Shown here one piece after another: positions 16,406 to 52,974 of a stretch of DNA of 64,000 nucleotides. Under the pieces are notes generated by a model. The model saw nothing but the letters and a program-made list of their open reading frames with translations, was not told the DNA's origin and searched no databases. This stretch comes from Arthrobacter sp. U41 (GTDB lineage: Bacteria > Actinomycetota > Actinomycetes > Actinomycetales > Micrococcaceae). Location of the stretch: positions 3,782,001 to 3,846,000 of the forward strand of contig NZ_CP015732.1 in the NCBI RefSeq assembly GCF_001750145.1, given 5' to 3'. The position numbers and the translations under genes were made by a program. Position 1 is the stretch's first letter. The number at the start of each line of letters is the position of its first letter.

Positions 16406-16965
16406 CACTTCACCGCCGTGGGCTGGCAGACCGTCAGTTGCCACGGAGCTCTTTCGATCAGCCATTTGTCCCCTGTCTTCACCAGGTCGAAGGCGTCCTC
16501 CATCTGATACTCAGCGCTTCCAAACGGTCCTCCGCCCTCGGAGACGGTGATCAGCACCCTGACGTCCGCGGATCCAGGGCGCTCGGTCGTGGAGACGAGC
16601 GTGACGCGCAGGTTCTCCCCTCCCGACCGTGGCATCTCTTTGATGCAGCCGGCCTTGGCGGCGTCAGTCAGGTAGGCCGCCGCGGCCGTCTCGTCGCCTG
16701 CGATCACGGCGGCGGAGTAGCGCTGGACCACCCCGGCGGGGGTGGCCTCGTCCAGCGGCGCGGGCTCTCCCCGGGTGAACACCACGATCAGGGCGACAAT
16801 CACCAGCACGGCAATGGCGGCGATTATGGCGAGCAGGGTCCGTTCCGGCCTGTGCAGCGTGGCGGCCGGTTCTTTCGTCGCCGGTGCGGACGGTTCTGCT
16901 GCGGCCGGTTTTGCTTCGTTCGGCTCGGGCTCTTTCGGCCCTGGTTCATTCGGCTCTGGACTCAT
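16405..16965 (-). CDS. Membrane-anchored hypothetical protein with Pro/Glu-rich N-tail
   Basis: A 186-aa protein. Residues 1-40 are Pro, Glu, Lys and Ala rich (MSPEPNEPGPKEPEPNE). One membrane helix follows (about 45-65, LLAIIAAIAVLVIVALIVVF), then a compact extracytoplasmic domain resembling NTF2-like or DUF4878-type folds (ATPAGVVQRYSAAVIAGDETAAAAYLTD ... KWLIE). Its stop overlaps the DUF5671 start by one base, so the two are an operon and may form one membrane complex (inference). Confidence 0.75.
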   Translation of the reverse strand: MSPEPNEPGPKEPEPNEAKPAAAEPSAPATKEPAATLHRPERTLLAIIAAIAVLVIVALIVVFTRGEPAPLDEATPAGVVQRYSAAVIAGDETAAAAYLTDAAKAGCIKEMPRSGGENLRVTLVSTTERPGSADVRVLITVSEGGGPFGSAEYQMEDAFDLVKTGDKWLIERAPWQLTVCQPTAVK

Positions 16966-17007
16966 GTGGTCAGTATGGAGCAGACCGGGAGTGCCGTCAT
17001 GGTGTCT

Positions 17008-17664
17008 TTAGGCCCCAGTGCGCCCTGACCTGCTGTTTCTTCGCCGCCGGAAGCCCCTCACAATGAGCGAGCCGACGACGAGCGCGAGTGCGGAGTACAC
17101 GGCAAAGTTGAGGAAGCGCGAATATTCGTCGATGAGCCGGTACTGCGCCCCGAGCATGGCCCCCAGCCCGATCAGCAGCCCGTTCCAGAGCCCGCTGCCC
17201 GCAACCGTGAACGCGCTGAACGTGCCAAGGTGCATCCTCTGGGCACCTGCCGGCAGCGAGATCAGGCTGCGCACGCCCGGCAGCAGCCTGCCGACGAAGA
17301 CTGCAGACCGGCCGTAGCGGCTGAACCAGCCGGCGGCCTTTTCAAAGTCTTCGCGGTCCATGAGCGGGAGCCTCGACAACCACCGGATCGACCGCTCCAG
17401 TCCCAGCCGCGCCCCGAGCCAATACAGCAGCAGCGCGCCCAGGTAGGCCCCCAGCGTGCTGGTAACCAGCACAAGGGCCAGGTTCATGGTCCCCTGCCGT
17501 GTGAGGAAACCGGCCAGGGGAAGGATGACCTCGCTGGGAATGGGCGGGAAGACGGTCTCCGTCAGGGTGAACAGCCCCACGCCCCACTCGCCGAGCGCGT
17601 CGACGGCGCGCGCGGCAAAACCGACCAGGCCGCCCATCTCGTCGATCGGGGTGGCGGATGTCAT
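17008..17664 (-). CDS. DedA family (VTT domain) membrane protein
   Basis: A 218-aa DedA protein. Family members act in lipid scrambling and membrane homeostasis. Seen are the re-entrant region ETVFPPIPSEVILPLAGFL, the segment LGAYLGALLLYWLGARLG, and the conserved basic motif FVGRLLPGVRSLISLPAG. ATG 17664 (MTSATP) is preferred over GTG 17670. The C-terminus ends in an Arg-rich tail. Confidence 0.9.
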   Translation of the reverse strand: MTSATPIDEMGGLVGFAARAVDALGEWGVGLFTLTETVFPPIPSEVILPLAGFLTRQGTMNLALVLVTSTLGAYLGALLLYWLGARLGLERSIRWLSRLPLMDREDFEKAAGWFSRYGRSAVFVGRLLPGVRSLISLPAGAQRMHLGTFSAFTVAGSGLWNGLLIGLGAMLGAQYRLIDEYSRFLNFAVYSALALVVGSLIVRGFRRRRNSRSGRTGA

Positions 17665-22694: not shown

Positions 22695-23429
22695 CTAGCC
22701 GGCGCGGACGAACGTCATGGGGCCGGTGGCGGTCAGCCAGGACAGCGGGTGCGTCACGGTGGAGTTGACGCCGTTCATGCCGCCGCTGATGGCCTGGCCG
22801 TTGCCGGCGTAGATGGCGACGTGGCCGGACTGGACGATCATGTCGCCGGGCTGCGGGTCGCCGACAACCTTGCCGTAGTTCAGGAAGGCCTGCGGTCCGA
22901 TGTCACCGACCGGGATGCCGGCCGCGTTCAGGGCCTTCTCCACGACGGCGGTGCAGTCCTGCGTGATGCCGATCTGGCCATAGGCCACGGCCAGCAGGGT
23001 GGCGTTCACTCCGCCGGCGGCAGGGGCGGCAGCGGGGGCAGGCGCGGGAGCGGCCTGGACCTTTACGGTCGCCTTGGCAGCGGCGGGTGCCGCGGGGGCC
23101 GGGACGGCGGGGGCCTTCGGAGCGGCTACCGGCTTGGGTGCCTCCACCACGGGAGCCGGGGCAGTCTCAACGGCCGGGCGCTCGAAGGTGATCTGGACGG
23201 CTGAGTCCGCCAGGACCGGCGCGGAGACCTGGCCCTGGACGTCCACGGACGACGCCGGTGCGGAGTCGCGCTCGGTCGGTGCATCGGCTGCGTTGGCGGC
23301 CATGGCGCCGCTAAGCACCATTCCGGAAGCGGCGACGAGTACCGCGGCCTGGCGGCCGATGGTGCCGGCGGTGCGGCGCTTGCTGCGAAGGTCGGCGCGT
23401 TTGGGCGCACGGGTATTGCTAAAAGTCAT
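22695..23429 (-). CDS. Secreted NlpC/P60-type cell-wall hydrolase
   Basis: A 244-aa exported protein. A long basic N-region leads into a signal sequence (IGRQAAVLVAASGMVLSGAMAANA), then a Pro/Ala-rich linker (about 85-140), then a C-terminal domain with the NlpC/P60 plan: DCTAVVEKALNAAG (catalytic Cys region), PGDMIV and SGHVAIYAG (catalytic His). Family enzymes cleave peptidoglycan stem peptides. The start at 23429 follows the riboswitch; upstream in-frame Met codons lie inside the RNA element. C-di-AMP probably controls expression. Confidence 0.85.
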   Translation of the reverse strand: MTFSNTRAPKRADLRSKRRTAGTIGRQAAVLVAASGMVLSGAMAANAADAPTERDSAPASSVDVQGQVSAPVLADSAVQITFERPAVETAPAPVVEAPKPVAAPKAPAVPAPAAPAAAKATVKVQAAPAPAPAAAPAAGGVNATLLAVAYGQIGITQDCTAVVEKALNAAGIPVGDIGPQAFLNYGKVVGDPQPGDMIVQSGHVAIYAGNGQAISGGMNGVNSTVTHPLSWLTATGPMTFVRAG

Positions 23430-23435
23430 TAAAGA

Positions 23436-23632
23436 AGCCTCTCCCAATGCCTGCGAGGTGAGCTGTCGGATTCGGATGGGAGGCACCCGGCCGCACGCTG
23501 GCCCGATCATTGCGGGCCGTGCGGCTTCACCCCAAGACCCCTGGAGAAAAGCGGGTCAAAAGTGGTTTCCCCGTCTCTGCCGGACGTTGCTGCGGGTTAT
23601 CCCCGCGCCGCGGCAGAGTTAGGCAATCGGCT
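23436..23632 (-). ncRNA. ydaO/yuaA c-di-AMP riboswitch
   Basis: The leader on the minus strand contains the hallmark conserved pieces of this class in order. First GATTGCCTAACTCTG, then GGGGATAACCC, then ACGGGGAAACCA, GGGGTGAA in the centre, and the 3' signature CCGAATCCGACAGCTCACC followed by TCGCAGGCATTGGGAGAGGC. It ends just before the start of an exported NlpC/P60 hydrolase, the typical target of this riboswitch in actinobacteria. High c-di-AMP usually switches such genes off. Confidence 0.88.
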
Positions 23633-28068: not shown

Positions 28069-29913
28069 TCACGGCTTCGGCGACGGCTTGAGCACCATCG
28101 CCGAGCCGCCACCGCGCCTCACGGGCTCGGCGGCTGCGACCATGCGCCCGTCGGGCAGGAACTCGATGGCGGTCGCGGCACCGATCTCTGCCGCCGAGGT
28201 GAATGCGTCGCCGGACGGCGTGAACTGATGGCGGTACGGCGCGAGCTCGCCGCCATACGCGTCGATGAATTCCGGCTCGGCCGTGACGTTTTTGGTGTTC
28301 CGTTGCGAGGCCCGCGGTGCCGCGATCGCCTCCGAAATGCTCATGCCCAGGTCCACCCGGTTCAGGATCGTCTGCAGGACGGTGGTGATGATCGTCGAAC
28401 CGCCGGGCGATCCCAGCGCGAAAAACGGCTCATCATCCTTGAGCACGATGGTGGGAGACATGGACGAGCGTGGGCGTTTCCCCGGCTCGATCCGGTTCGG
28501 GTCGCTCGGGTCGTAGACCGTGGAGAAGTCGGTCAGTTCGTTGTTGAGCAGGAAGCCGCGGCCGGGGACCACGATGCCGGACCCGCCGGTCTGCTCGATC
28601 GTGAGCGTGTACTCGACAACGTTTCCCCACTTGTCCGCGACCGTCAGATTGGTCGTGGAGATGTTCTCCGTGTCCTTCTCGTCGGCGGGCGCCGCGGCGG
28701 GAGCAGGGCACACGCCGTCGTAGGTGGACACGTCACCCGGCAGGACGGGCTTATCAGCCGCCTGCAGCGGGTCAATCCGGCAGGCACGCTCCTTGCCGAA
28801 CAGCGGATCCGTGAGCGCTCCGGTGGGGACGTCGCCGAACGCGGGGTCGCCCACGTACTTACCGCGGTCCGCAAAGGCCAGCGCGCTCGCCTCAAGGTAA
28901 TGATGCAGGGCGCCGGGTCTGGACATCTCGGAAAGGTTGAACGTGTCAAGGATGTTCAGCGCCTCGCCGGCCGTGGTGCCGCCGCTGCTCGAGGGAGCCA
29001 TGCCGTAGACGTCCAGGCCGCGGTACTCGACGTGCGTGGGGGCCTGATCCAAGGCGCGGTAGTCGGCGAGGTCATCCGTTGTCAGAAAGCCGACCGGGAC
29101 GGGCAGCGTTGTGCCGGCAGTCTTGGGCGGCGCCTGCACCGTGGCCGCGATCTCGGCCGCAAGGGCGCCGCCGTAGAAGCCGTCCGTGCCCTGCTTCGCA
29201 AGGAGCCGGTAGGTAGCGGCCAGGTCGTGGTTCTGGAAGACACTGCCGACGGCGGGCGCGTCGCCGCCCGGGAGGAAGAGCGAGCTCGTCGAGGTGAAGG
29301 CCCCGAACCGGACCTCGTTGTCGAGGGTCTGCTGGCGGAATGTTTCGTCGACGACGAAGCCACGGGTCGCTACCTTGATCGCAGGTTTGAGCGCAGGTTT
29401 GAGCGCATCGCCCAGGCTCAGCGTGCCCCACCGGTCGAGGGCGCGCTCCCACGTGGCCGGCGTGCCGGGGACCCCCACGGAGACGCCGCTCGTGACGAGG
29501 TCGGGCGTGAAGCGGTAGGGCTGGCCAGTCATTGGGTCGATAAACGCGTCGGTCGGCATGTCTGCCGGCGCGGTCTCGCGCCCGTCGATTGTGCCGACCT
29601 CCCCGGTCTTCGCGTCGTAGAACACGAAGTAGCCTCCGCCGCCAATCCCGGCGCTGTACGGCTCGGTCACGCCGAGTGTCGCGGCTGCGGCGACGGCGGC
29701 GTCCGCCGCGTTGCCGCCCTTGCGGAGGACCTCGATCGCCGCTGCGGATGCCTCCGGGTCCACGGTGCTGACAGCGCCGCCGTACCCGGTGGCGGTCGAC
29801 TCCTTGAAGGTCTCCCGCGGATCGGCGAACGCGGGAGCGGCGACGGCGCCGCCCGTCACGCTCAGGGCCAGAGCGGCAGTAACGGCCGCCAGCCCACGTG
29901 TCACAGATGCCAT
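28069..29913 (-). CDS. ggt: Gamma-glutamyltransferase
   Basis: A 614-aa secreted N-terminal nucleophile hydrolase that transfers or hydrolyses gamma-glutamyl groups. Signal peptide at residues 1-30 (LAAVTAALALSVTGGAVAAPAFA). The large subunit begins with AVSTVDPEASAAAIEVLRKGGNAADAAVA. The autoprocessing Thr is in the ISTTNLTVAD segment that begins the small subunit. Later glycine-rich LGSPGGSTIITTVLQ and FLLNNELTDFS match the family. ATG 29913 is chosen because it begins the signal peptide and follows GGGAGC. Confidence 0.92.
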   Translation of the reverse strand: MASVTRGLAAVTAALALSVTGGAVAAPAFADPRETFKESTATGYGGAVSTVDPEASAAAIEVLRKGGNAADAAVAAAATLGVTEPYSAGIGGGGYFVFYDAKTGEVGTIDGRETAPADMPTDAFIDPMTGQPYRFTPDLVTSGVSVGVPGTPATWERALDRWGTLSLGDALKPALKPAIKVATRGFVVDETFRQQTLDNEVRFGAFTSTSSLFLPGGDAPAVGSVFQNHDLAATYRLLAKQGTDGFYGGALAAEIAATVQAPPKTAGTTLPVPVGFLTTDDLADYRALDQAPTHVEYRGLDVYGMAPSSSGGTTAGEALNILDTFNLSEMSRPGALHHYLEASALAFADRGKYVGDPAFGDVPTGALTDPLFGKERACRIDPLQAADKPVLPGDVSTYDGVCPAPAAAPADEKDTENISTTNLTVADKWGNVVEYTLTIEQTGGSGIVVPGRGFLLNNELTDFSTVYDPSDPNRIEPGKRPRSSMSPTIVLKDDEPFFALGSPGGSTIITTVLQTILNRVDLGMSISEAIAAPRASQRNTKNVTAEPEFIDAYGGELAPYRHQFTPSGDAFTSAAEIGAATAIEFLPDGRMVAAAEPVRRGGGSAMVLKPSPKP

Positions 29914-30070
29914 GATCGCTCCCGAGTCCTTGTGATGCGTGTTGACAGTGATTGTCACGCTACTACGCCGCGGTGCGACACTCAACAGCGCGGGCCGATA
30001 GGACGGGATGAGAATTCCTCCCCGGAAATTGGATTCGTAGCCGGTTGGCGTGCCTTGGCTGCTCCCGGGT

Positions 30071-31090
30071 TCAGGGGCGTGCTGATCCGATTGGGCCGAG
30101 GGCCGCCTGCCGGCAGGCGGCCGCCAGGGCGTCCCGGTGCCCGTCCAGCCAGGCGAGCCGGTGGTCCTCCAGGCGGATCTTTTCGTGGTCGTTGTCGGAC
30201 AGGGTTTCCCCGTCCCGTATCCGGCTGCGCCGCCCGAGGCCCCGCTTCAGCCGTTTGGCCTCGAGCAGCAGCGGCAGGGCTTCGACTTCTGCCGCTGTGG
30301 GTGGCGTCTCCCGGCTGTAGGCGGCGAGCAGCTCCGTGACGCGGTTGAGATCCAGCGCGACCTTGTGGTCGGCCTGGCCGGTGCGGGTGTAGACCTTGCC
30401 GGCGTCGTGAACGGCGACGGCGAGATCGAGCACCCGGATGTCCGGGTGGGAGCTGTCGAAGTCCAGGACCCCCACCACCTGGTCGCCGCGGAAGACGAGG
30501 CTGCCGCGGCGGGCGCCGCCGTGCACGACCACCCGGGGAAGGTCCGGGAGCAGGCCGGTCAGTCGCTCCACCAGGTGCGCGGTCCTGTCCTGGAGGGCGG
30601 GATCCACCTCCGGTTCAGCGGCCCGGCTGCGCAACTCGCCGAGCACGGCCGGCTCGGCCGCCGGCGCGGGCTGATCGGCGACGACCCGGTGGTAGCGGGC
30701 GAGCGTCCGGCCCAGAGCATGCAGGTGCGCCCGCGAGCCGTCGTCGAACGGCTCCCCCTCGACGCCGCGGGTTGCGATCCAGAACCGGCCGAAGAGCTCG
30801 ACATGGTCGGCGCCGGTGCTGGCCGGGACCACCTCCGGTGCCGGGAACCCGCGGCTTCGGAGCAGCCGCATGAGGGCCAACTGGCCAGCGAGCTCCTCCA
30901 GCGGCTTGGACCGGTAGGACCGGCGCAGATAGTGGACGCCGGCCGCGGTTGCCAGGCGCAGGTGTTCGTTTTTGCCGCCCGGCACCGGGCTGACCGAGGT
31001 CCAGCCGCCCAGCGGCCACTGGATGGCGAGCTCGGCCAGCGGGAGCTCCTGACCGGCGCGGTCCAACAGTGTCCCCCCGGATAGCATCAT
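30071..31090 (-). CDS. APH-fold phosphotransferase-like protein, catalytic Asp missing
   Basis: A 339-aa protein of the aminoglycoside/choline kinase fold. The N-lobe is around KNEHLRLATAAGVHYLRRSY; the C-lobe has VVVHGGARRGSLVF where active kinases have HGDxxxxN, so both the catalytic Asp (now Gly) and the Asn (now Ser) are replaced. The later metal-binding DFD is intact (VGVLDFDSSHPD). Last gene of the glucan/ABC operon, overlapping the previous gene by 4 bp. It may be a pseudokinase or sugar-binding partner. Confidence 0.8.
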   Translation of the reverse strand: MMLSGGTLLDRAGQELPLAELAIQWPLGGWTSVSPVPGGKNEHLRLATAAGVHYLRRSYRSKPLEELAGQLALMRLLRSRGFPAPEVVPASTGADHVELFGRFWIATRGVEGEPFDDGSRAHLHALGRTLARYHRVVADQPAPAAEPAVLGELRSRAAEPEVDPALQDRTAHLVERLTGLLPDLPRVVVHGGARRGSLVFRGDQVVGVLDFDSSHPDIRVLDLAVAVHDAGKVYTRTGQADHKVALDLNRVTELLAAYSRETPPTAAEVEALPLLLEAKRLKRGLGRRSRIRDGETLSDNDHEKIRLEDHRLAWLDGHRDALAAACRQAALGPIGSARP

Positions 31091-32112
31091 GCCCCGGCCC
31101 TTCCTTCTGCCACCCGGTAGAACTCGTCCCGGTACAGCCTGAATTCGGCGTCGCCGTCATCACGCCAGTCCGCCTCCCCTGTCTTGACGCTGCGGTTGAG
31201 GCTGTGCAGGATGTGGCGCGCCCAGTGGAAACGCAGGTTCGCCAGCCGGTCGCCGCCCGCGGCTTCCCGGTAGGCGCCCAGGAACGCCGCACTCGCCTGG
31301 TTGGCCCGGCTGACATCACCGGTGGCGTCATGCACGCCCACCCGCAGCCGGTGCAGGAACTCGGCAACATCGCGTGCGGGGTCCGCCGGTGCGCTGCGGT
31401 CGAGGTCAATCACGGTCACGATGTCCTCGGTCAGGAAGACGTGGATCGGCCGGTACTGCCCGTGGCTCTGGGCCAGGACGCCGTCCACGGTGTCGCGGGT
31501 GAGGTCGTCCAGTCGGTCGAGCATGGCCAATCCCGTGTCCAGGTAGCCGGGGCGCTCGGCTGCCACCTTTGCCAGACGCTTGGCCATACTGGTCAGCTCG
31601 CCCGTGACCAGGAGGGATTGCGGGAGCCCGACTCGAAGGTCCGCCCCGTTCAGGTGTGCCAGCCATGCCCCGGCCCGGGCACAGGCCGCTGCGAGCTCCG
31701 CGCCGTCGCTGCCGAGCAGGTCCGACAGCGGCCTGCCCGGCGCGCCGCGGCAGAGCAGGACCTTCTCCTCCCCGTACCAGGCCAGCGGCTCGACCGCCTG
31801 GAACGGGGCTCCGGCGCCCAGTCCCGCGGCGCGGAGCGCCTGCAGCTTCGTGTGCACCGCAGGGCCGTCCTCGAACGGGAACAGTTTGGCGAACACGGGG
31901 GCGCCGCCGTCGAGCTCGATCCGCACGGTGGCGGCCCCGGTACCGTCCAGCTGGATCACCTCTGTGGCCCACGATCCCCCGGCCGGCGCGTCCGCGCCCA
32001 GGTGGGGGCGGACATAGCGCTCGAGGAATTCCGTGCTGCGGACCCGTTCGGCACGGTCGGCCTGCTGCTCCTTCACGTGGCGGTACTGCGTGTGGTTCTG
32101 GGTACGGTCCAT
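31087..32112 (-). CDS. APH-fold phosphotransferase-like protein, catalytic Asp missing (second)
   Basis: A 341-aa protein of the APH/maltokinase-like fold. VFAKLFPFEDG carries the N-lobe Lys. The catalytic loop reads SHGQYRPIHVFL, with Gln and His in place of the Asp and Asn of HGDxxxxN; the later motif is VTVIDLDRS. ATG 32112 is chosen; upstream in-frame starts would overlap the ABC gene, which ends 11 bp away. It overlaps the next gene by 4 bp. Confidence 0.8.
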   Translation of the reverse strand: MDRTQNHTQYRHVKEQQADRAERVRSTEFLERYVRPHLGADAPAGGSWATEVIQLDGTGAATVRIELDGGAPVFAKLFPFEDGPAVHTKLQALRAAGLGAGAPFQAVEPLAWYGEEKVLLCRGAPGRPLSDLLGSDGAELAAACARAGAWLAHLNGADLRVGLPQSLLVTGELTSMAKRLAKVAAERPGYLDTGLAMLDRLDDLTRDTVDGVLAQSHGQYRPIHVFLTEDIVTVIDLDRSAPADPARDVAEFLHRLRVGVHDATGDVSRANQASAAFLGAYREAAGGDRLANLRFHWARHILHSLNRSVKTGEADWRDDGDAEFRLYRDEFYRVAEGRAGA

Positions 32113-32122
32113 ACGTCCTCCG

Positions 32123-34075
32123 TTACGGGGAAGGGGTTGTCGGCTTCGAAAGGCGGGTTGTGGGCTGGTCCATTCCGACGTCGCGGGGTGGGGCCGCGTG
32201 GCGGCCATAGCCTGCCGCGCTGTGGTCCAGGAGCGCCCGGTGGTCGGTGATCCCCTGGAGCAGGCACATCTCCGCGTAGAGGCCGCCCGCCGCAATCAGC
32301 CTCCGGTGCGTACCGCGTTCCACCACCCGCCCCGCGTCCAGGACCACGATCTCGTCCGCGGTCATTGCCGCCGCCATCCGGTGGGTGATGATCACCGTGG
32401 TCCGTCCGGAGCTGACCTGCCGAAGGGCGCGCAGTACGGCGTCCTCGGACCGGGCGTCCAGGCCGGTCGTCGGTTCATCGAGCACCAGGATCGGGCAGCC
32501 CTGCAGGACCGCCCGGGCCAGTGCTAGCCGCTGCCGTTGCCCGCCGGACAGTGTCGCACCGCGTTCGGCCAGGACCGTCTCGTAGCCCTCAGGCAACGCC
32601 TGCACGAAGTCGTGGGCCTGGGCCGCGCGGGCGGCGAACTCGACCTCTTCCGCGGAGGCGCCGGGACGGGCGTATGCGATGTTGTCCCGGACGGAGGCCC
32701 GAAACAGCAGGGCATCCTGGGTGACCAGCCCGACCTGGGTGTGCAGGCTGGCGCCGGTGAGATCGCGCAGGTCCGCATCGTCGAGGAGGACACGGCCGCT
32801 GGTGGGGTCCTGCAGCCGGCACAGCAGGGCAGCGATCGTCGACTTCCCCGCCCCGGTGGGCCCGACGACAGCGAGGGTGGTGCCCACCGGTACCGTCAGG
32901 TTGACGTCCCGCAGGACGGGCTGGCCCGCCGTGTAGGCGAACCCGACCCCGTCCAGGCTGAGCCCCTCCCGTGGCCGGCCGGCCGTGCGGGCATCGGGCT
33001 TGTCCTCCACCTCCGGCCGCCGCTGGAGGGTGTCGGCGATGCGGGCAGCGCGGACGCCGGCGCGGGTCAGTTGGGCGGGAAGCTTGGACAGCGCCCGGGT
33101 GGGTCCGAAGAAGTCACGCAGATATGACGTGAAGATCACCAGGTCACCCGGAGTGAGGACACCGGCCAGCACGCGCTCGGCCCCGAGCCAGACCAGGCCC
33201 GCGATCGCCACGGCGACCACCGAGTCCACGGCGGCCACGAACGCGGCGCTGGTGCGGGCGGAGCGGAGCACAGCGGCGACGGCAGCGTCCGAACGGCTCC
33301 GGAAGCGACAGGACTCGTGTCCTTCCCGCCCGGTGGCCTTGACCAGTTTGACCGCCACCAGCGATTCCTGCGCCACCGCCGCAAGATCCCCCTCGATCGC
33401 GCGCGAATCCTCCTCGACCGCCCTGATCCGGGCGCGGAAGCTGGCCACTGTCAGCAGGAGCAGGGGCAGCACCAGCAGCAGCGCCGCGCTGAGCTCCCAG
33501 TCCAGGACCAGCAGCACCCCCGCCATGCCGGCCAGCGTGAGCACGTTGGTCGCGGCGTCGACGAGCGTCACGGTCAGCAGCGCGCGCACCTTGTCGATGT
33601 CCCCGGTCAGGCGGGTCGTCAGCTCACCGGTCGGTGTCCGCTCGTGGTACGCGAGCGGCAACCGCTGCAGATGGTCGTACAGCTTCGTGCGGAGCGCGGC
33701 GGCCACCCGCTCGCCGACCACGGTCTGGGTGTAACTACGTGCCGCCCCCACGAGGGAGTCCAGGACGGTGATGCCAGCCAGCGCCAGGACGACGAAGACG
33801 AGGATCTGTTGTACGTTCCGGCCGGCCGAATCGCCGGTGGGGAGCAATACCTCGTCGAAGAGAAATTTCAGCGGCCACGGCTTGAGCAGTGCAACGCCCG
33901 TCCCGACGACTGCCAGCAGCCCGGCCAGCAGGCAACCGGCCCATTGCGGCCGCAGGAAGGGGCCGAAGGTCCGCACAATCGCGCCGGCGCTCATGACCGG
34001 CCTGCCGGAGGCGCCCCCCGTCCGGGGAGCCGACCGACGGTGATGAGGCGTGATCCAGGTGCCGGCTCCACTCAT
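32123..34075 (-). CDS. ABC exporter, fused permease and ATPase
   Basis: A 650-aa type IV (MsbA-like) half transporter. Six-helix membrane domain (about residues 30-330, e.g. GCLLAGLLAVVGTGVALL and LELSAALLLVLPLLLL). The ATPase domain has Walker A GPTGAGKST, signature LSGGQRQR, Walker B ILVLDEPT and the switch His in IITHRM. It probably forms a homodimer and exports a lipid, glycan or peptide. The start at 34075 overlaps the upstream stop by 4 bp; ATG 33994 is an alternative. Confidence 0.9.
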   Translation of the reverse strand: MSGAGTWITPHHRRSAPRTGGASGRPVMSAGAIVRTFGPFLRPQWAGCLLAGLLAVVGTGVALLKPWPLKFLFDEVLLPTGDSAGRNVQQILVFVVLALAGITVLDSLVGAARSYTQTVVGERVAAALRTKLYDHLQRLPLAYHERTPTGELTTRLTGDIDKVRALLTVTLVDAATNVLTLAGMAGVLLVLDWELSAALLLVLPLLLLTVASFRARIRAVEEDSRAIEGDLAAVAQESLVAVKLVKATGREGHESCRFRSRSDAAVAAVLRSARTSAAFVAAVDSVVAVAIAGLVWLGAERVLAGVLTPGDLVIFTSYLRDFFGPTRALSKLPAQLTRAGVRAARIADTLQRRPEVEDKPDARTAGRPREGLSLDGVGFAYTAGQPVLRDVNLTVPVGTTLAVVGPTGAGKSTIAALLCRLQDPTSGRVLLDDADLRDLTGASLHTQVGLVTQDALLFRASVRDNIAYARPGASAEEVEFAARAAQAHDFVQALPEGYETVLAERGATLSGGQRQRLALARAVLQGCPILVLDEPTTGLDARSEDAVLRALRQVSSGRTTVIITHRMAAAMTADEIVVLDAGRVVERGTHRRLIAAGGLYAEMCLLQGITDHRALLDHSAAGYGRHAAPPRDVGMDQPTTRLSKPTTPSP

Positions 34076-35103
34076 CGGTATCCGCCTCCCGCCGCGGCCT
34101 CCACAGCAGATTCCCAGCCGACGAGCCAGTCCGGCACGAACGACGCGTTCCCGACCGGGCGGACCACGAGGCGGTAGAAGAGGACCTCGGCGAAGGTTCG
34201 GGCCACGTACGCCGGGGCGGACCGGACGGCATCGGCTCCGCCGCCGGCGTCGGCGTAGCCGTCCAGGAAGGCCTCCACCCAGGGCGCGGCGGCGTCCAGT
34301 CCCCCGTGCCGTGCGGCGCCCATGGTCAGGGCCTGCCCGATGAAGTGGCCGAGGTCCCGGGCGGCCGGAGCCCGGGCGGCCCGGTCGAAGTCGATCACAA
34401 CGACGCGGTGTTGGTCCAGATGGATGTTCTTGGGCTGGAAGTCCCCATGGGTCACCACCCGGGAGCCAACGGCGCCGGCCAGGCCCGCCAGGGTCGCCTC
34501 GGTCAGCTCGTCCAGCCGGCCGGCAGCCTGCGGCAGCAGCTTGGCAAGCGCCCCGGCGTACTCGGTGAGCTTGGTCCGCTCAAAGTCCGCCGGCAGCTCC
34601 GGCACCTGCACGCCGCGGACGCCGTGCAGGCGCGCCAGCCAGCGGCCGGCCCGCGCGGCCTCGGGTGCGGCTGTCCCCGGGTCGCCGTCCAGGAGCGAGT
34701 GGAGCGTGGCGGCCGGCGCCTCCTCCATCGCGAGGAGCTGCCGTTCCGGGTCGAAGCCATAAGGCGCCGGGACCTGGTGCTCGACGCCGTCGAGGCCCGC
34801 CTGACGCAGCTCGCCCAGCAACCGCCACGCCTGCTCGCCGCCTCCGGCCCGGTACCCCTTGCCGATCACCGCCAGCGGGGCCCGGGGGCCCTGCCCGGTG
34901 TCGAAGGTGACCGTCCACCTGACGACCGGCCGGCTGCGGGAGGCGTGCACCACCGAGCGGGTGACCACCTGCACCTGCCCGGGGGGCAGGGCATCCAGCG
35001 GTGGCGGCGTGACCAGCAGCGACTCGGCGATTGCGAGCCGTACAGCCCGCGGCGCCGTTGCAGCCGTGGCCGTGACCGAAACGGCGCCGGCGCCGGCGCT
35101 CAC
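34072..35103 (-). CDS. APH-fold phosphotransferase with intact catalytic motif
   Basis: A 343-aa kinase of the aminoglycoside/choline/maltokinase fold. The catalytic loop is THGDFQPKNIHL (Asp and Asn present), the metal motif VVVIDFDRAAR, and the N-lobe contains APLAVIGKGY. Among the three related proteins of the operon it is the only one with complete active-site residues, so it should supply the real phosphotransferase activity. Substrate unknown; a sugar or glucan is inferred from the neighbouring GT5-GH57 gene. Four-base overlaps on both sides. Confidence 0.87.
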   Translation of the reverse strand: MSAGAGAVSVTATAATAPRAVRLAIAESLLVTPPPLDALPPGQVQVVTRSVVHASRSRPVVRWTVTFDTGQGPRAPLAVIGKGYRAGGGEQAWRLLGELRQAGLDGVEHQVPAPYGFDPERQLLAMEEAPAATLHSLLDGDPGTAAPEAARAGRWLARLHGVRGVQVPELPADFERTKLTEYAGALAKLLPQAAGRLDELTEATLAGLAGAVGSRVVTHGDFQPKNIHLDQHRVVVIDFDRAARAPAARDLGHFIGQALTMGAARHGGLDAAAPWVEAFLDGYADAGGGADAVRSAPAYVARTFAEVLFYRLVVRPVGNASFVPDWLVGWESAVEAAAGGGYR

Positions 35104-38100
35104 CCCCGGCCTCCAGCCTGGCCGCGGGCGGTCAGGCCGGCGAGCCGTTCCCGACCCGTCTGGAGGGCCCGCGCCGCGGTGTCGTCGTCGATCTCACCCA
35201 CGCCGATGAGCAGATGGAAGGACCGCGCTCCGGCGCGCACCCGCACGAGCACGCCATGCCCCGGGTCGGGCCCGGAGGAGTCATCCCAGGCGGTGTCCTC
35301 GTCGTCGGCCAGGGCGATCCAGACCCCCGCCCCGCGGTTGCAGGCGCCGCGCCAGCTCCGTCCCCGCTGGCGCTGCAGCCCGGCCACACCGTGGCGGAGC
35401 AGCCGGTAGTAGTCCGGCGAGAGGCAGGCCTCGACGGTGAGCCCGGGTGCCGCCGCGGGCAGGTCATAGGCGACCAGCAGCGAGGGACTCGCGTCGTCAA
35501 GGACGATCCGCTTGCGGAGCCCCAGCAGCGGACTGCCCTCCTGCGCGTTCGCCAGCTCCACCCGAATGGCCCCGTCCGCGGCATGGATGGCCACCTCGTG
35601 CCGGTCATGAACGCCCCCAGCGTCGGCGAGCGCACCGGGGTGGTTGCCCGGGACGTCCATATAGCTGTTCAACTCCTCCTGACGGTTCCAGTCATCGGTG
35701 GGGTTCCCGATCACCAGCACACCGCCGTCCGGGCCGCGGCATGCCAGGTAGACCAGGCGCCCGCCGCACGCCGGGGCCAGCACGGCGAAGAGGTGCTCGC
35801 TCCTCAGGACCAGCTCCTCCGTGCCGTCGTCGTCGATGTCGACCAGTTCGGCACCGAGCTCTCGGGCCGGGCCGCCGAACCACCGGGCCGCGGCCGCCAG
35901 CACTTCGGTGGCGCGCCCATGGCTTGCCACCGCCTTGGCCCAGGCGGCCGGGGGACGCTCCGGCAGGTTTGTGTCGTGCCAGGCCGTCTCGTACCCCGAA
36001 GCCAGCAGGTGTTTCCAGGCCAGCGCGGTCAGCCGCGGTTCGGCGCCGGCACTTTCCGCGACGGCGACGGCGCGGCGGGCCCGGGTGAGATGCTCCTGAT
36101 ACGGGCGCCAGGCCTGGTCCTGGCCCCAGCCGCGGTAGTCCTCCCCCGCGTGCCAGTCCTGTGCCAGTTCCACGAAGGTGCCGCGCTCCACTTCGCGGAC
36201 GCCGGGGACCCGACGGCGCTCGCGGAGCCACGAGGGCAGATCCACCGGTATCAGGTGCGGCTGGGTGGCCAGCCAGCGCAGGAACTCCTCGTACCGCCCG
36301 AGCGCACTGGGGTGCCACGGACCCACCCCGGCGCTCTTCTCCATGTCGTCGGCGTACACCAGGACGGTGTCATCGCCAGGGGCGGTCGGCAGTTCGGCCG
36401 CGCGGGAGAGGCTGCGCCAGTGCCTCCGGTCCTCCGGGGGAATCCAGTAGCGCAGCCGGGTCGACATCGGCACAACCTGCAGGCCGTTGCCGCCTTCGAT
36501 GCGGTACGGGCGCAGCGCATCGGCCGGCGGAGGACTGGCCGGATCGGCCCCGTCGAAGTCCGCACGGTCGCTGCCCCCGTGGGCGCCGTCGGTGGGATAG
36601 AGCAGCCGGTCGTCGAGCAGGACGTACCGGTAGCCTCCGTTGGGCAGGGCCGGGTTTGTCAGGGTCCCGGCCAGGCGTTCGGTGTCCCACACCCGTTCTG
36701 GGACCCAGCAGATCTCCAGGTCCTCCGGCGCGCACCCCAGGTGACGCCGGTAGAGCCAGAACAGCTCGTGCAGCTGCCGCCGGTTGTACTCCGCGTCGAA
36801 GGCGGTCAGGACGTTTTCGGAGTAGGTTCCGCCGACGAGCGAGAGCAGGCCGATGTCGCGAAGCCGGCGGACGTCGTCGAGAAACCAGGGGTGGTGCCAG
36901 GCGACCGCTTCAACCATGGTTCCGGACAGGTGGATGGCGACCGGGGTGCGGTACTTCTCGTGCAGCTTCAGCAGCGCCGCGTAACCGGTCACGATCTGGG
37001 TGAGGCCCTCCCGGTCCTGATAGCCGTCTGTGACCAGATACTGGTTGGCGTGGTGGACAAGGGCCAGGGGAAGCGGGGCCGGGCGCGGCCTCGACCGGGG
37101 CGCCGGGGCGCCAGTCCGCGGGGCGCCGGGCCGCACCGCGCCGGGAACGACGACGTCGGCGGCGCGGGCGACGTCGGCACCGCACCGCGAGCGCACAGCC
37201 TCGTCGTAGAGGGCGACGTATTCACTGGCGGGCGCCCGCCAGGAGAAGTCCGCCGCCATCACCCGCTGCTGCAGCCGACGCCACTCGGGCTCGCGCCGGT
37301 AGACCGCGAGCGCGCTGTCGACCGCCGACAGCATCGACGCGACACGGCGCTGGACGAACACGAACCCCAGTCCCGCGGCCGGATCCTCGGCGTAATCCGT
37401 CACCGTGTCCGCGAGGCCCCCGGTACGTCGGACGACGGGGACGGTGCCGTACCGCAGGGCGATCAGCGGTGTCAGCCCGCACGGTTCAAAGACGGAGGGT
37501 GCCAGGAAGAAATCCGAGCCTGCGTAGACCTGCCGGGCCAGGGATTCGCGCGAGTCGGGGTGGTACGCCACATTGCCGGGGAGACGCCGGGCCGCGGCCT
37601 GCAGCTCACGCCGGTACCGGAGCGCACCCTCGCCCATCACCACCACCTGGGCTCCCCGGGCCACTATCTGGTCCAGTGCCGAGGACAGCAGTCCGACCCC
37701 CTTCTGCGACACCAGCCGGGCCACCATGCCGAAGAGCGGACGCTCCGGGGCGCGCTCCAGCTTGCTGATCCGCTGCAGGGCCTCCTTGTTCGAGGCCTTT
37801 CCGGCGATGAAGGAGCCGTCATAGCGGGTGTCGATCCACGGGTCCCGCTCGGGGTCGAATTCCTCGTAGTCGACACCGTTGAGGATGCCCCGTGCGGTAT
37901 CCCCCCGGGCGCGCAGCAGTCCGTCCATTCCGGCCCCCTGGGCCGGCGTGAGGATCTCCTGCATATAGCGCGGGCTGACGGTGTTGACCCGATCGGCGAA
38001 GGCGATGCCCCGCTCAAGCAGGGTCCCGGCCGGCGGCAGTCCTATCAACTGGTCGGTGGCAGCCCCGACCCGCCCCTGGTAGGCGATGTTGTGGATCGTG

Positions 38101-38663
38101 AAAACGATCCCGGTGCGCTCCAGTGCACGCCGGTGCGGTCCCTGCCGGGCGTCCTGGGCCACCAGCCCGCAGTGCCAGTCGTTGCAGTGGATGAGGTGGG
38201 GACGCCACGAGTCCTGCGCCGCCAGCGTCGTGACGGCCTTTGAGAACAGCACGAATGGCATGACGTCGTCGTCCTGGTAGCTGTAGGGGACCTCACGGTC
38301 GAACCACCCCGGAAGGTCCAGGGTGACGACGTCCACTCCGCCCAGCGGCGGCAGACGGCGGACCACGACGCGCTCGGCGACCGGGCCGAACGGCACCTCG
38401 AACGCCAGCACCTTGCTCCCGCCGAGCCCCCGATACCCCGGGATCACCAGGCGGACGTCGAAGCCGAGATTGGCCAGCCTCTTCGGCAGCGCACTGCTGA
38501 CGTCGGCCAGCCCGCCCACCTTAACGAACGGATAAGCCTCCGCGCTGGCGAACAGCACGCGCTGAGTCTTTGGCGGCGGGCTGTGGCCGCCATCAAGCAC
38601 GGTGTCCATCACGGGGTCCGCGAGTATTCGAATGGAGCCGGAATCGGCATTTTCCCACCTCAC
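35100..38663 (-). CDS. GT5 glucan synthase fused to GH57 glycoside hydrolase
   Basis: A 1187-aa cytoplasmic fusion. Residues about 30-495 are a glycogen/starch synthase (GT5): YPFVKVGGLADVSSALPK, HCNDWHCGL, FTIHNIAYQG, GILNGVDY, ARLVSQKGVG and PSVFEPCGLTPLIALRYG. Residues about 528-880 are GH57: LALVHHANQYL, the nucleophile segment EICWVPERVWD (near 653) and the acid segment VYADDMEKSAG (near 771). About 300 further residues are beta-rich and resemble the C-terminal part of GH57 alpha-glucanotransferases. The start is GTG 38663; ATG 38609 is possible. First gene of a five-gene operon. A dual synthase plus branching/transferase enzyme is inferred. Confidence 0.87.
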   Translation of the reverse strand: MRWENADSGSIRILADPVMDTVLDGGHSPPPKTQRVLFASAEAYPFVKVGGLADVSSALPKRLANLGFDVRLVIPGYRGLGGSKVLAFEVPFGPVAERVVVRRLPPLGGVDVVTLDLPGWFDREVPYSYQDDDVMPFVLFSKAVTTLAAQDSWRPHLIHCNDWHCGLVAQDARQGPHRRALERTGIVFTIHNIAYQGRVGAATDQLIGLPPAGTLLERGIAFADRVNTVSPRYMQEILTPAQGAGMDGLLRARGDTARGILNGVDYEEFDPERDPWIDTRYDGSFIAGKASNKEALQRISKLERAPERPLFGMVARLVSQKGVGLLSSALDQIVARGAQVVVMGEGALRYRRELQAAARRLPGNVAYHPDSRESLARQVYAGSDFFLAPSVFEPCGLTPLIALRYGTVPVVRRTGGLADTVTDYAEDPAAGLGFVFVQRRVASMLSAVDSALAVYRREPEWRRLQQRVMAADFSWRAPASEYVALYDEAVRSRCGADVARAADVVVPGAVRPGAPRTGAPAPRSRPRPAPLPLALVHHANQYLVTDGYQDREGLTQIVTGYAALLKLHEKYRTPVAIHLSGTMVEAVAWHHPWFLDDVRRLRDIGLLSLVGGTYSENVLTAFDAEYNRRQLHELFWLYRRHLGCAPEDLEICWVPERVWDTERLAGTLTNPALPNGGYRYVLLDDRLLYPTDGAHGGSDRADFDGADPASPPPADALRPYRIEGGNGLQVVPMSTRLRYWIPPEDRRHWRSLSRAAELPTAPGDDTVLVYADDMEKSAGVGPWHPSALGRYEEFLRWLATQPHLIPVDLPSWLRERRRVPGVREVERGTFVELAQDWHAGEDYRGWGQDQAWRPYQEHLTRARRAVAVAESAGAEPRLTALAWKHLLASGYETAWHDTNLPERPPAAWAKAVASHGRATEVLAAAARWFGGPARELGAELVDIDDDGTEELVLRSEHLFAVLAPACGGRLVYLACRGPDGGVLVIGNPTDDWNRQEELNSYMDVPGNHPGALADAGGVHDRHEVAIHAADGAIRVELANAQEGSPLLGLRKRIVLDDASPSLLVAYDLPAAAPGLTVEACLSPDYYRLLRHGVAGLQRQRGRSWRGACNRGAGVWIALADDEDTAWDDSSGPDPGHGVLVRVRAGARSFHLLIGVGEIDDDTAARALQTGRERLAGLTARGQAGGRG

Positions 38664-38801
38664 TCCAAGTCGCTGGAAAGTCCATCAGCGTTTGTTGTGT
38701 GGAGACAGTCTTGTCCCGTCCGAAGAGGAGTGTCAACATCAAAGCCAAAGGTGATGACGCCGGCGGAATACCGGGCGGCGGAATACCGCTAGGAGCAAGA
38801 G
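38664..38801. promoter_or_regulatory. Divergent promoter region between glucan operon and PBP gene
   Basis: 138 bp separate the two start codons. Just before the PBP ribosome site (AGGAG) the motif GCGGAATACCG occurs twice, 14-15 bp apart (about 38762-38792). No clear -35/-10 pair can be assigned by eye. Confidence 0.35.
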
Positions 38802-40985
38802 ATGGCTCGATCCGGATCGCGGCTGGCCAAGGCCCTCCGAAGGGTGCTCGGGTACTTCACGGTGAGCGCGGTCTGCGGCGTACTGGCCGCCAGCCTCGTG
38901 GTTCCTGCCGTCGCCGGGGCGGCTGTCGCGCTGCGGGAATCGATCGTGTTCTTCAATGGCCTGCCGTCCGAATTGAGAGTCGATTCGCCGTCGCAGTCGA
39001 CCACGGTTTTGACCTCGGACGGGAAGCTGATCGCCACGTTTTACGCGGAGAACCGGGTGAAGATCAGCCTGGACCAGATGTCCCCCCACATCAAGGACGC
39101 CATTGTCGCCGTCGAGGACCGCCGCTTCTACGAACACGCAGGGATAGACCCCCAGGGGATTCTTCGCGCCCTGACATCGAACCTGACCAGTGGCAGCAGG
39201 CAGGGAGCCTCAACCCTGACCCAGCAGTATGTCACCAACATTCTCAATGAGTCCCTGATGTCGGCGGACAAGGGAGACCGGATCGTCCTCAGCGGGCAGA
39301 AGAGCGTCGGCGACAAGGTCCGCGAAATAAAGCTCGCGCTCGAACTGGAGAAGAAGTACACGAAGGACCAGATCCTCGAGGGCTACCTGAACATCGTGTT
39401 CTTCAGCCGGGATGCCTACGGAATCGAAGCCGCGTCGCGCCACTTCTTCAGCACCACAGCCAAGGACCTGACCCTGCCGCAGGCAGCCCTCCTCGCCGGC
39501 ATGGTGAAAAGCCCCAGCTTCTACAATCCGGCCGTCTACCCCGACAACGCCCTCGCCCGGCGCAACCAGGTCCTCGACGCAATGCTCGAGGTCGGCCACA
39601 TCTCCCAGGCAGAACACGATGCCGCCGCCGCCGCCGGGGTGGAGCTCAACATCACGCCGGGGAAACAGGGGTGCGCCGGTGCGGAGATGGCACCGTACTT
39701 TTGCGACTACGTTTCGCACCTCATTCTCAACAACCCGGCCTACGGCGTCGACCTGGCCACCCGGGTCAGCAGTCTGTACCGCGGCGGTCTGACCATCACC
39801 ACCACGCTGGACAGCCGGCTGCAGCTGGCAGCGCAAGCGCAGGTTGATGCCACGGCGGGCGCTAACCCGGACAAGTGGGGCGCGTCGCTGGTCTCCATCG
39901 GTCCGGGCACGGGGAAGATCCTGGCGATGGCGCAGAACACCGTGTTCCTCCCGGAACCCGGGAAATTCGATACCCAGCTGAACTTCAACGTGGATTCCAA
40001 GGACGCCAAGGGAAATGACCTGAACGGCGCCGGCGGATTCCAGCCCGGATCCACCATGAAACCGTTCACTTTGGCGCAATGGCTCAACGAGGGCAGGTCC
40101 CTGGCTGACACGGTGGATGCCTCCCGGCGGACGTATCCCCTCGATTTCCCTTGGAAGTCCAGCTGCGGCGAGGTGCTCGGTGCCTACAACACGAAGGAGA
40201 AGAACCGCGGCGCGGCGGACGACCTGCAGAACAACGACGACGGTTACTACCACAAAATGCGCGTCGACTACGGGTTGTACAACTCCATCAACACCGCCAC
40301 CTTCGCGGAGGCCGCCCAGCTGGACTTTTGCGGCATCCAGAAGATGGTGGATGCCGCTGGAATCCACAGCGGTCTGGATCACGCACCGGTCAACATGCAT
40401 CAACTCGGCAACCTGCTGGGGGCGACTGGCGTGGCGCCCCTCGTTTTGGCCAATGCCTTTGCCACCTTCGCCAACGACGGCACGTACTGCGAGCCCGTCG
40501 CCATTGTGGCAGTGACCGACTCGGCGGGACAGCAGTTCCCGGCCCAGACCACATCCTGCCGTGAGGCCATCAAGCCCGACGTCGCCCGGGGCGTGAACTC
40601 CGTGCTCCAGGACGTGCTGAAAAAGGGGTCAGGCATCTACATCAAACCCAAGGTCCACACCCGCTTCCCGGTGGCGGCTAAGACCGGCACCTCAAACACC
40701 AACGGCGCCACCTGGGTGGTCGGCTACACCAGCGGCCTGGCCACAGCATCCTTCTTCGGGGACGCCCTGGAAGGTCAAAAGCGGCCCGGCCAGAACATCA
40801 CCGTCAACGGCAAGTTCTACAAAAGCATTGACGGCTATATGCTCGCCGGCCCGCAGTGGGCGAACTACATGCTCGAGGCCGGCGGACTCTATCCGGCGGA
40901 GCGATTCCCGCCGCCGCCGGAGGCGATGACCCAGAAACCTGATCGGGACGACGATGACGATGACGACGACGACGACCGGGACTGA
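38802..40985 (+). CDS. Class A penicillin-binding protein (transglycosylase/transpeptidase)
   Basis: A 727-aa bifunctional peptidoglycan synthase. One N-terminal membrane helix (about 16-43). GT51 domain with AIVAVEDRRFYEHAGID, STLTQQYV and GYLNIVFFSRDAYGIEAA. Transpeptidase domain with active Ser in GSTMKPF, SxN equivalent YNSINTA and KTGTSNTN. The C-terminus ends in a short tail with ten consecutive Asp. Divergent from the GT5-GH57 operon; ATG after AGGAG. Confidence 0.93.
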   Translation: MARSGSRLAKALRRVLGYFTVSAVCGVLAASLVVPAVAGAAVALRESIVFFNGLPSELRVDSPSQSTTVLTSDGKLIATFYAENRVKISLDQMSPHIKDAIVAVEDRRFYEHAGIDPQGILRALTSNLTSGSRQGASTLTQQYVTNILNESLMSADKGDRIVLSGQKSVGDKVREIKLALELEKKYTKDQILEGYLNIVFFSRDAYGIEAASRHFFSTTAKDLTLPQAALLAGMVKSPSFYNPAVYPDNALARRNQVLDAMLEVGHISQAEHDAAAAAGVELNITPGKQGCAGAEMAPYFCDYVSHLILNNPAYGVDLATRVSSLYRGGLTITTTLDSRLQLAAQAQVDATAGANPDKWGASLVSIGPGTGKILAMAQNTVFLPEPGKFDTQLNFNVDSKDAKGNDLNGAGGFQPGSTMKPFTLAQWLNEGRSLADTVDASRRTYPLDFPWKSSCGEVLGAYNTKEKNRGAADDLQNNDDGYYHKMRVDYGLYNSINTATFAEAAQLDFCGIQKMVDAAGIHSGLDHAPVNMHQLGNLLGATGVAPLVLANAFATFANDGTYCEPVAIVAVTDSAGQQFPAQTTSCREAIKPDVARGVNSVLQDVLKKGSGIYIKPKVHTRFPVAAKTGTSNTNGATWVVGYTSGLATASFFGDALEGQKRPGQNITVNGKFYKSIDGYMLAGPQWANYMLEAGGLYPAERFPPPPEAMTQKPDRDDDDDDDDDDRD

Positions 40986-41040
40986 ACCGCGCACGGGCAG
41001 GCACCGCGCCGACGCCGCCATCGGCGCCGGCCGGCCTCCT

Positions 41041-41113
41041 GCACCCGTAGCTCAGCGGGCAGAGCAGTGGATTTTTGATCCTCGGGTCATGGGTTCGAAT
41101 TCCACCGGGTGCA
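41041..41113 (+). tRNA. tRNA-Lys (anticodon TTT)
   Basis: 73 nt with standard geometry. The acceptor GCACCCG pairs with CGGGTGC, D-stem GCTC/GAGC, anticodon loop TTTTTGA (anticodon 41074-41076), T-loop TTCGAAT, discriminator A; CCA is not encoded. Two oddities: a T-T mismatch in the anticodon stem (GTGGA/TCCTC) and imperfect T-stem pairing (ATGGG/TCCAC). G rather than A follows the anticodon. The identity rests on the anticodon only. Confidence 0.8.
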
Positions 41114-41135
41114 CCCCAACTTCGTGGCGGATGGA

Positions 41136-50961: not shown

Positions 50962-52974
<2,013 letters not shown>

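Follow-up and report, generated by a model that had tools for sequence, protein, structure and literature searches.

What could a soil bacterium make with an operon in which a glycogen synthase-like enzyme, three kinase-fold proteins and an exporter are encoded side by side? The window analysed here is a stretch of 64,000 nucleotides from a genome of the Arthrobacter group (Arthrobacter sp. U41, contig NZ_CP015732.1), and all coordinates below are window positions unless a locus or a genome position is named. On its minus strand, from 38663 to 30071, lie five genes encoding, in this order, a fusion of a GT5 glycosyltransferase with a GH57 enzyme, the kinase-fold protein APH1, an ATP-binding cassette (ABC) exporter and the kinase-fold proteins APH2 and APH3. 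We propose, with a probability of roughly one half, that this operon is a patchily distributed, self-contained cassette for making a modified alpha-1,4-glucan (maltooligosaccharide or cyclic glucan) and exporting it, apart from storage glycogen.

Organization of the operon

The five-gene operon had been outlined in a preliminary description of this DNA, and its open reading frames (ORFs) were all found again. Pfam assigns Glyco_transf_5, Glycos_transf_1 and Glyco_hydro_57 domains to the fusion (35100–38663, minus strand as are all five genes), ABC_membrane and ABC_tran domains to the exporter (32123–34075), which is of the MsbA/half P-glycoprotein type, and an APH domain to each of the three small proteins: APH1 (34072–35103, 57.1 bits), APH2 (31087–32112, 34.9 bits) and APH3 (30071–31090, 90.4 bits). 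Genes overlap by 4 bp at three of the four junctions, as described earlier. The remaining gap, between the stop of the exporter gene and the start of APH2, shrinks from the 11 bp given before to 10 bp if APH2 begins at the ATG at 32112, which is probably its start since the resulting 341-aa protein matches its homologues in length.

Conservation and inheritance

The fusion had 737 relatives at E<=1e-30 in a protein search, and the names among the 120 listed include Arthrobacter, Pseudarthrobacter, Geodermatophilus, Modestobacter, Nocardioides, Cellulomonas and Rubrobacter. When a species-level genome collection was scanned with a GH57 alignment, 28 loci were obtained. In every one of the 14 loci that bear the fusion (L021–L034, among them Pseudonocardia, Geodermatophilus, Nocardioides and Cellulomonas) GT5, GH57, APH1, ABC and APH3 follow each other in identical order, and APH2 is present in 13, being absent from L031. 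Since the arrangement recurs in all fusion-bearing loci it is not due to chance, and the co-inheritance claimed at the outset is borne out by the gene order in other actinobacteria. APH2 shares 57.6 to 80.6% identity with that of the window in 12 loci and is in pieces in L033. Frame shifts split the fusion in L032 and L033; the latter locus is shifted throughout, the neighbouring gamma-glutamyltranspeptidase (GGT) gene included, which probably reflects poor assembly. The same gene order is seen in L068 and in L069, where GT5 is broken.

In a more distant actinobacterium, G419, the order recurs with insertions: GT5-GH57 is followed by an ORF for the C-terminal domain, then by ABC, by genes for a sulfatase (PF00884), a phosphodiesterase (PF01663) and a protein without assignment, and by APH1, APH2 and APH3. 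Between ABC and APH1 thus lie the sulfatase, the phosphodiesterase and the unassigned protein of 556 aa (locus L067 of this genome, 1248–6164, minus strand), which may serve to trim the product or to decorate it. The C-terminal domain has an ORF of its own, which overlaps the end of GT5-GH57 (L067, 8125–11600, minus strand), and several homologues of about 895–915 aa among the matches listed end like the G419 protein.

The GH57 part is rare: within the genus 14 of 206 genomes have it (13 of the 195 good ones), and of 396 genomes sampled across the phylum two do, namely the window's own genome and G419. The Pseudonocardia fusion is 71–77% identical to the Arthrobacter/Pseudarthrobacter fusions, which are 74–96% identical to each other. 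Together with the patchy distribution and the unlike flanks this identity suggests that the operon may have been transferred as a block; the trees, being unrooted, are no proof. Between the five proteins the correlation of pairwise identities is r 0.88–0.98, which could also result from shared descent alone. The identity and tree comparison covered 12 operons, with L031, L032, L033, L002, L068 and L069 set aside.

The GT5-GH57 fusion

The preliminary description rightly placed GT5 and GH57 in one protein; its length of 1187 residues is less secure. The start is uncertain, and the ATG at 38609 (1169 aa) is the probable one, because the GTG at 38663 is out of frame with a leader common to the fusions of the window, L024 and L034. 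The database copy of the protein from the same genome is shorter still (1152 aa). Counted from 38663, GT5 occupies residues ~35–490 and is joined by a linker of about 39 residues (~493–531) to GH57, which begins at 532 and is followed from ~940 by a C-terminal domain.

The GT5 part passes the GlgA model TIGR02095 (447.8 bits against a cut-off of 328.45), and E. coli GlgA can be aligned with it over its whole length. Residues H191, R316, K321 and E393 are invariant in the 70 homologues longer than 850 aa among the 120 listed of the 737, and K48 is found in 68 of these 70; we take these five to be the catalytic residues of GT5. In the GH57 part, Glu656 of the nucleophile motif is conserved in 120/120 of the listed relatives, and Asp772 and Asp773 (acid/base, motif 4) in 118/120, the other two having gaps. 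The sole PDB match of the GH57 profile at E<=0.01 is the 4-alpha-glucanotransferase of T. litoralis (1k1w, E 6.7e-18). GH57 4-alpha-glucanotransferases can make cycloamylose, so a cyclic product is possible.

Kinase-fold proteins

As judged from the alignments, the catalytic kinase residues are kept by APH1 alone of the three proteins. Its HGD, N and DFD motifs are intact in 23/23 aligned rows and in 116 to 118 of 120 homologues, the catalytic Asp being present in 117. In APH2 this Asp is replaced by Gln (HGQ) in each of the 119 of 120 homologues that have a letter there, and the metal-binding Asn by His, with Lys and DLD retained. In APH3 it is replaced by Gly (HGG) in all 14 aligned rows, with DFD retained; this protein is homoserine-kinase-like, matching homoserine kinase 2ppq with E 3.2e-9. 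APH2 and APH3 are therefore predicted to be pseudokinases. The structure models of APH1 and APH2 have a predicted local distance difference test (pLDDT) score of 93.9 and 94.4, respectively. Of the earlier assignment the APH fold stands for all three proteins; three kinases are unsupported, because the catalytic Asp and the metal Asn occur only in APH1.

Homologue searches found 737, 193 and 122 proteins, of which 120 each were listed and used for the counts. The frame-shifted L033 contributes no motif rows (and L031 has no APH2 to contribute), and of over-long ORFs only the last 350 or 400 residues were aligned; the structure alignments comprised 54 and 51 sequences picked from the homologue lists and the loci. 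Maltokinase 4u94 is among the structural matches of the APH-fold comparison, and no maltokinase model is among the profile matches of APH1.

A third pseudo-APH, an extra paralogue, occurs in many relatives. In L021 fragments of such a gene lie between ABC and APH2 (14988–15438, plus strand), which suggests that this paralogue is occasionally lost. In L031, from Cellulomonas aerilata, the APH3 frame continues by eye into a nucleotide-sugar-dehydrogenase-like stretch (~15043–17316, plus strand), a putative fusion.

The exporter and other alpha-glucan genes of the genome

None of the NCBIfam exporter models among the 25 listed is passed at its own cut-off. MsbA-type models are among the best matches, and the NdvA/ChvA models are missed as well (PRK13657, 315.4 against 733 bits; TIGR01192, 234.3 against 585.4 bits).

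By Pfam, the operon genes include no glgC, glgB, glgP or glgX and no GlgE or TreS. Elsewhere in the genome, near 3.466 Mb, there is a glgC (446.9 against 424.9 bits) with an adjoining glgM-type synthase (560.6 against 302.4 bits), and a GlgE domain is found at 1.985 Mb. No second GH57 was found in the genome, nor any other match to the whole fusion at E<=0.001. With this separate set elsewhere and no other fusion or GH57, the operon is, on gene content, a second alpha-glucan system of the genome. Its mismatch with the glg and GlgE operons, pointed out in the preliminary description, is thereby supported.

Simpler relatives outside Actinobacteria

In the Bacillota loci L035, L036, L037, L040 and L041 GH57 has a gene of its own, with which an APH1-like gene shares 4 bp; the two also occur together in L038, in L042 and in L039, a metagenome-assembled genome of Chloroflexota. 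A glycosyltransferase-like gene stands immediately upstream in L035, L036, L040, L041 and L042; it was recognized by eye except in L036, the only locus tested with Pfam, where it is of GT4 type. Separate GT5 genes lie on other contigs in the Bacillus and Paenibacillus genomes tested. The kinase and GH57, paired in these loci, thus look like the older core; the GT5 fusion, the exporter and the pseudokinases would then mark the actinobacterial form. These Bacillota are endospore formers, and for this reason call the CotS/YtaA clusters to mind.

In the Bacillus locus L036 (7160–13440) genes for RIO-like, GT4, APH, GH57 and HipA_2 proteins are grouped, so that several kinase-like proteins surround a glycosyltransferase and GH57. 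HipA_2 lies downstream, and the RIO-like proteins nearby score below the RIO cut-off.

Proposed function

In the proposed cassette, GT5 would elongate an alpha-1,4 chain using ADP-glucose from the distant glgC, as its conserved residues suggest. The tethered GH57, a putative 4-alpha-glucanotransferase, would cut the chain and join it again, so as to fix its length or make it into a ring, and APH1 may phosphorylate either the glucan or its primer, or else a carrier. APH2 and APH3, with the third pseudo-APH in many relatives, may be constrained pseudokinases with nucleotide or glucan as ligand, serving APH1 and the synthase as scaffolds or regulators. The product would leave the cell via the ABC exporter. 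Domains and conserved gene order agree with a unit for synthesis and remodelling of an alpha-glucan with an exporter, as was suggested at first.

The product, the substrate of APH1 and the cargo of the exporter are what we infer, and several findings weigh against this assignment. Of the three segments into which the match to 1k1w falls, only the first is significant alone (i-E 1.1e-9, against 0.65 and 0.27 for the other two); one of the weak segments holds the acid/base motif of GH57. APH folds match kinases acting on many unrelated substrates. The exporter is similar to multidrug and lipid exporters no less than to glucan exporters, and every one of these matches is far below cut-off. Finally, no exporter of this kind adjoins the Bacillota forms in the loci seen, L040 having one unrelated ABC ATPase.

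Other explanations were weighed on the same evidence. The kinase-fold proteins could form a CotS/YtaA-like surface module which recruits or holds the glycosyltransferase, so that the glucan is attached to a surface protein or lipid and not released. The fold is the same as that of YtaA, but the YtaA match is no better than that of many other kinases, scores for the CotS model TIGR02906 (APH1 19.2 bits, extra paralogue 45.0 bits) are far below the cut-off of 172.7 bits, and Arthrobacter is not known to form endospores; we consider such a module unlikely. Equally doubtful is a lipid or small molecule bearing a short glucan as the exporter cargo, with a glycolipid or secondary metabolite as the product of the operon. 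The place of MsbA-type models among the best exporter matches and the sulfatase- and phosphodiesterase-type genes within the G419 operon speak for it, as does a set of glycosyltransferase and APH-type kinase known from actinobacterial gene clusters, in the part of the source available (PMC6520443). The conserved operon, however, contains no polyketide, peptide or lipid synthesis gene, and its flanks are not conserved.

That GT5 meets a glycogen synthase model would also suit a second storage or stress glycogen system kept inside the cell, to which the exporter is linked by position only. Such a system is improbable given an operon lacking glgB, glgP, glgX and glgC, a separate glgC/glgM-type/GlgE set in the genome and an exporter that holds its place in 14/14 loci. 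Least probable by far is a peptide-modifying cluster of the class V lanthipeptide type with APH1 as an LxmK-like kinase: APH1 reaches 41.7 bits with the LxmK model NF038156, whose cut-off is 315 bits, the scores of homoserine, methylthioribose and tryptamine kinases differ from that of LxmK by no more than 1, and the genes of the window operon are packed too closely for a precursor gene to fit between them (no search for precursors was made elsewhere).

The cassette for an exported, modified alpha-glucan thus remains our preferred explanation. If it is true, some soil actinobacteria hold a complete movable route from ADP-glucose to an exported modified alpha-glucan beside an ordinary GlgE-type set, and a small defined gene set would be at hand for testing directly what pseudokinases do in bacterial polysaccharide assembly, a question of long standing. 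A bolder and rather unlikely version would make the cassette an alpha-glucan counterpart of NdvB/NdvA: a one-protein synthase/cyclase forms cyclic alpha-1,4-glucans, which are phosphorylated by APH1 and exported by the ABC protein as an osmotic or desiccation protectant, and the HGQ and HGG proteins are not dead but carry out some other nucleotide-dependent chemistry or have an allosteric role that is obligatory. Of the carriers, Geodermatophilus, Modestobacter and Rubrobacter are known to tolerate drying or radiation; this fits a protective role and tests nothing.

Neighbouring genes

A divergent gene for a penicillin-binding protein (PBP) with Transgly and Transpeptidase domains (Pfam) lies at 38802–40985. 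The hint at the cell envelope which had been drawn from it is unsupported, because, of the loci examined, the window, L024 and L034 alone have a PBP gene beside the operon; an envelope link as a general feature was rejected, neighbours including the PBP being unconserved. In the flank comparison (13 loci, 25 largest shared families; L002, L068 and L069 outside it) shared families unite only close relatives (L022/L023, L025/L027/L028, L024/L034), save one ABC-ATPase-like family and unrelated ORFs. A promoter-like stretch, TTGACA-17 bases-CAAGACT, lies at approximately 38684–38738 on the minus strand and is common only to the window, L024 and L034 among 16 upstream regions compared, in which exact TTGACA alone was searched. 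The plus-strand ORF of 1009 aa opposite the fusion (35214–38243) is taken for a putative GC-rich artefact.

Downstream of the operon, at 28069–29985 (minus strand), is the GGT gene; apart from the window, only L024 and L033 have one beside the operon. A tRNA-Lys (ttt) gene just past the PBP gene (41040–41116, plus strand) is a possible insertion point. About 12 kb from the operon and with no link to it, a protein of 670 aa with CBM48 and an alpha-amylase-type domain (50962–52974, minus strand) is perhaps a debranching or trehalose enzyme. A cyclic di-AMP riboswitch (23434–23629, minus strand; 53 bits, cut-off 38) precedes and overlaps the ORF 22695–23510, which has an NlpC/P60 domain.

Comparison with known systems

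The component families are known already, and the combination appears undescribed: we know of no described system of the same make-up. The literature searched contained no description of the operon and no pathway for it, in line with the preliminary description, and the accessible portions of a 2024 review of prokaryotic alpha-glucan enzymes (PMC11046441) do not mention such a fusion.

The likeness to the classical glg operon (GlgC, GlgA, GlgB) lies in GT5, a GlgA by its model; here, however, it is fused to GH57, GlgC and GlgB are missing, and kinase-fold proteins and an exporter are added. The GlgE pathway with its maltokinase is also an alpha-glucan pathway with an APH-fold kinase, but GlgE and TreS are absent from the operon and the GlgE domain is encoded elsewhere. 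With 1k1w, the nucleophile motif, the acid/base motif and the start of the C-domain can be aligned; in contrast to that enzyme, GH57 here sits behind a fused glycogen synthase, and at this low similarity it is 4-alpha-glucanotransferase-like by sequence only.

In the mycobacterial methylglucose lipopolysaccharide genes Rv3030–Rv3032 an alpha-glucan glycosyltransferase is paired with GH57 as well; there it is of GT4 type and accompanied by a methyltransferase, and no such kinases or exporter are known there. The NdvB/NdvA cyclic beta-glucan system consists of one large synthase and one ABC exporter, on paper the same layout, whereas the families here are those of alpha- rather than beta-glucans and the exporter stays far below the NdvA-type cut-off.

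The closest analogy, as far as the source goes in the part available, is with the spore kinase clusters (ytaA/cotI, cotS, cotSA, ytcC), in which kinase-fold proteins, some without the catalytic Asp, stand beside glycosyltransferases (PMC2860764). Kinase, pseudokinase and glycosyltransferase are grouped in both; that part describes spore formers and neither a GT5-GH57 fusion nor an exporter, and the APH proteins of the operon and its relatives fail the CotS model.

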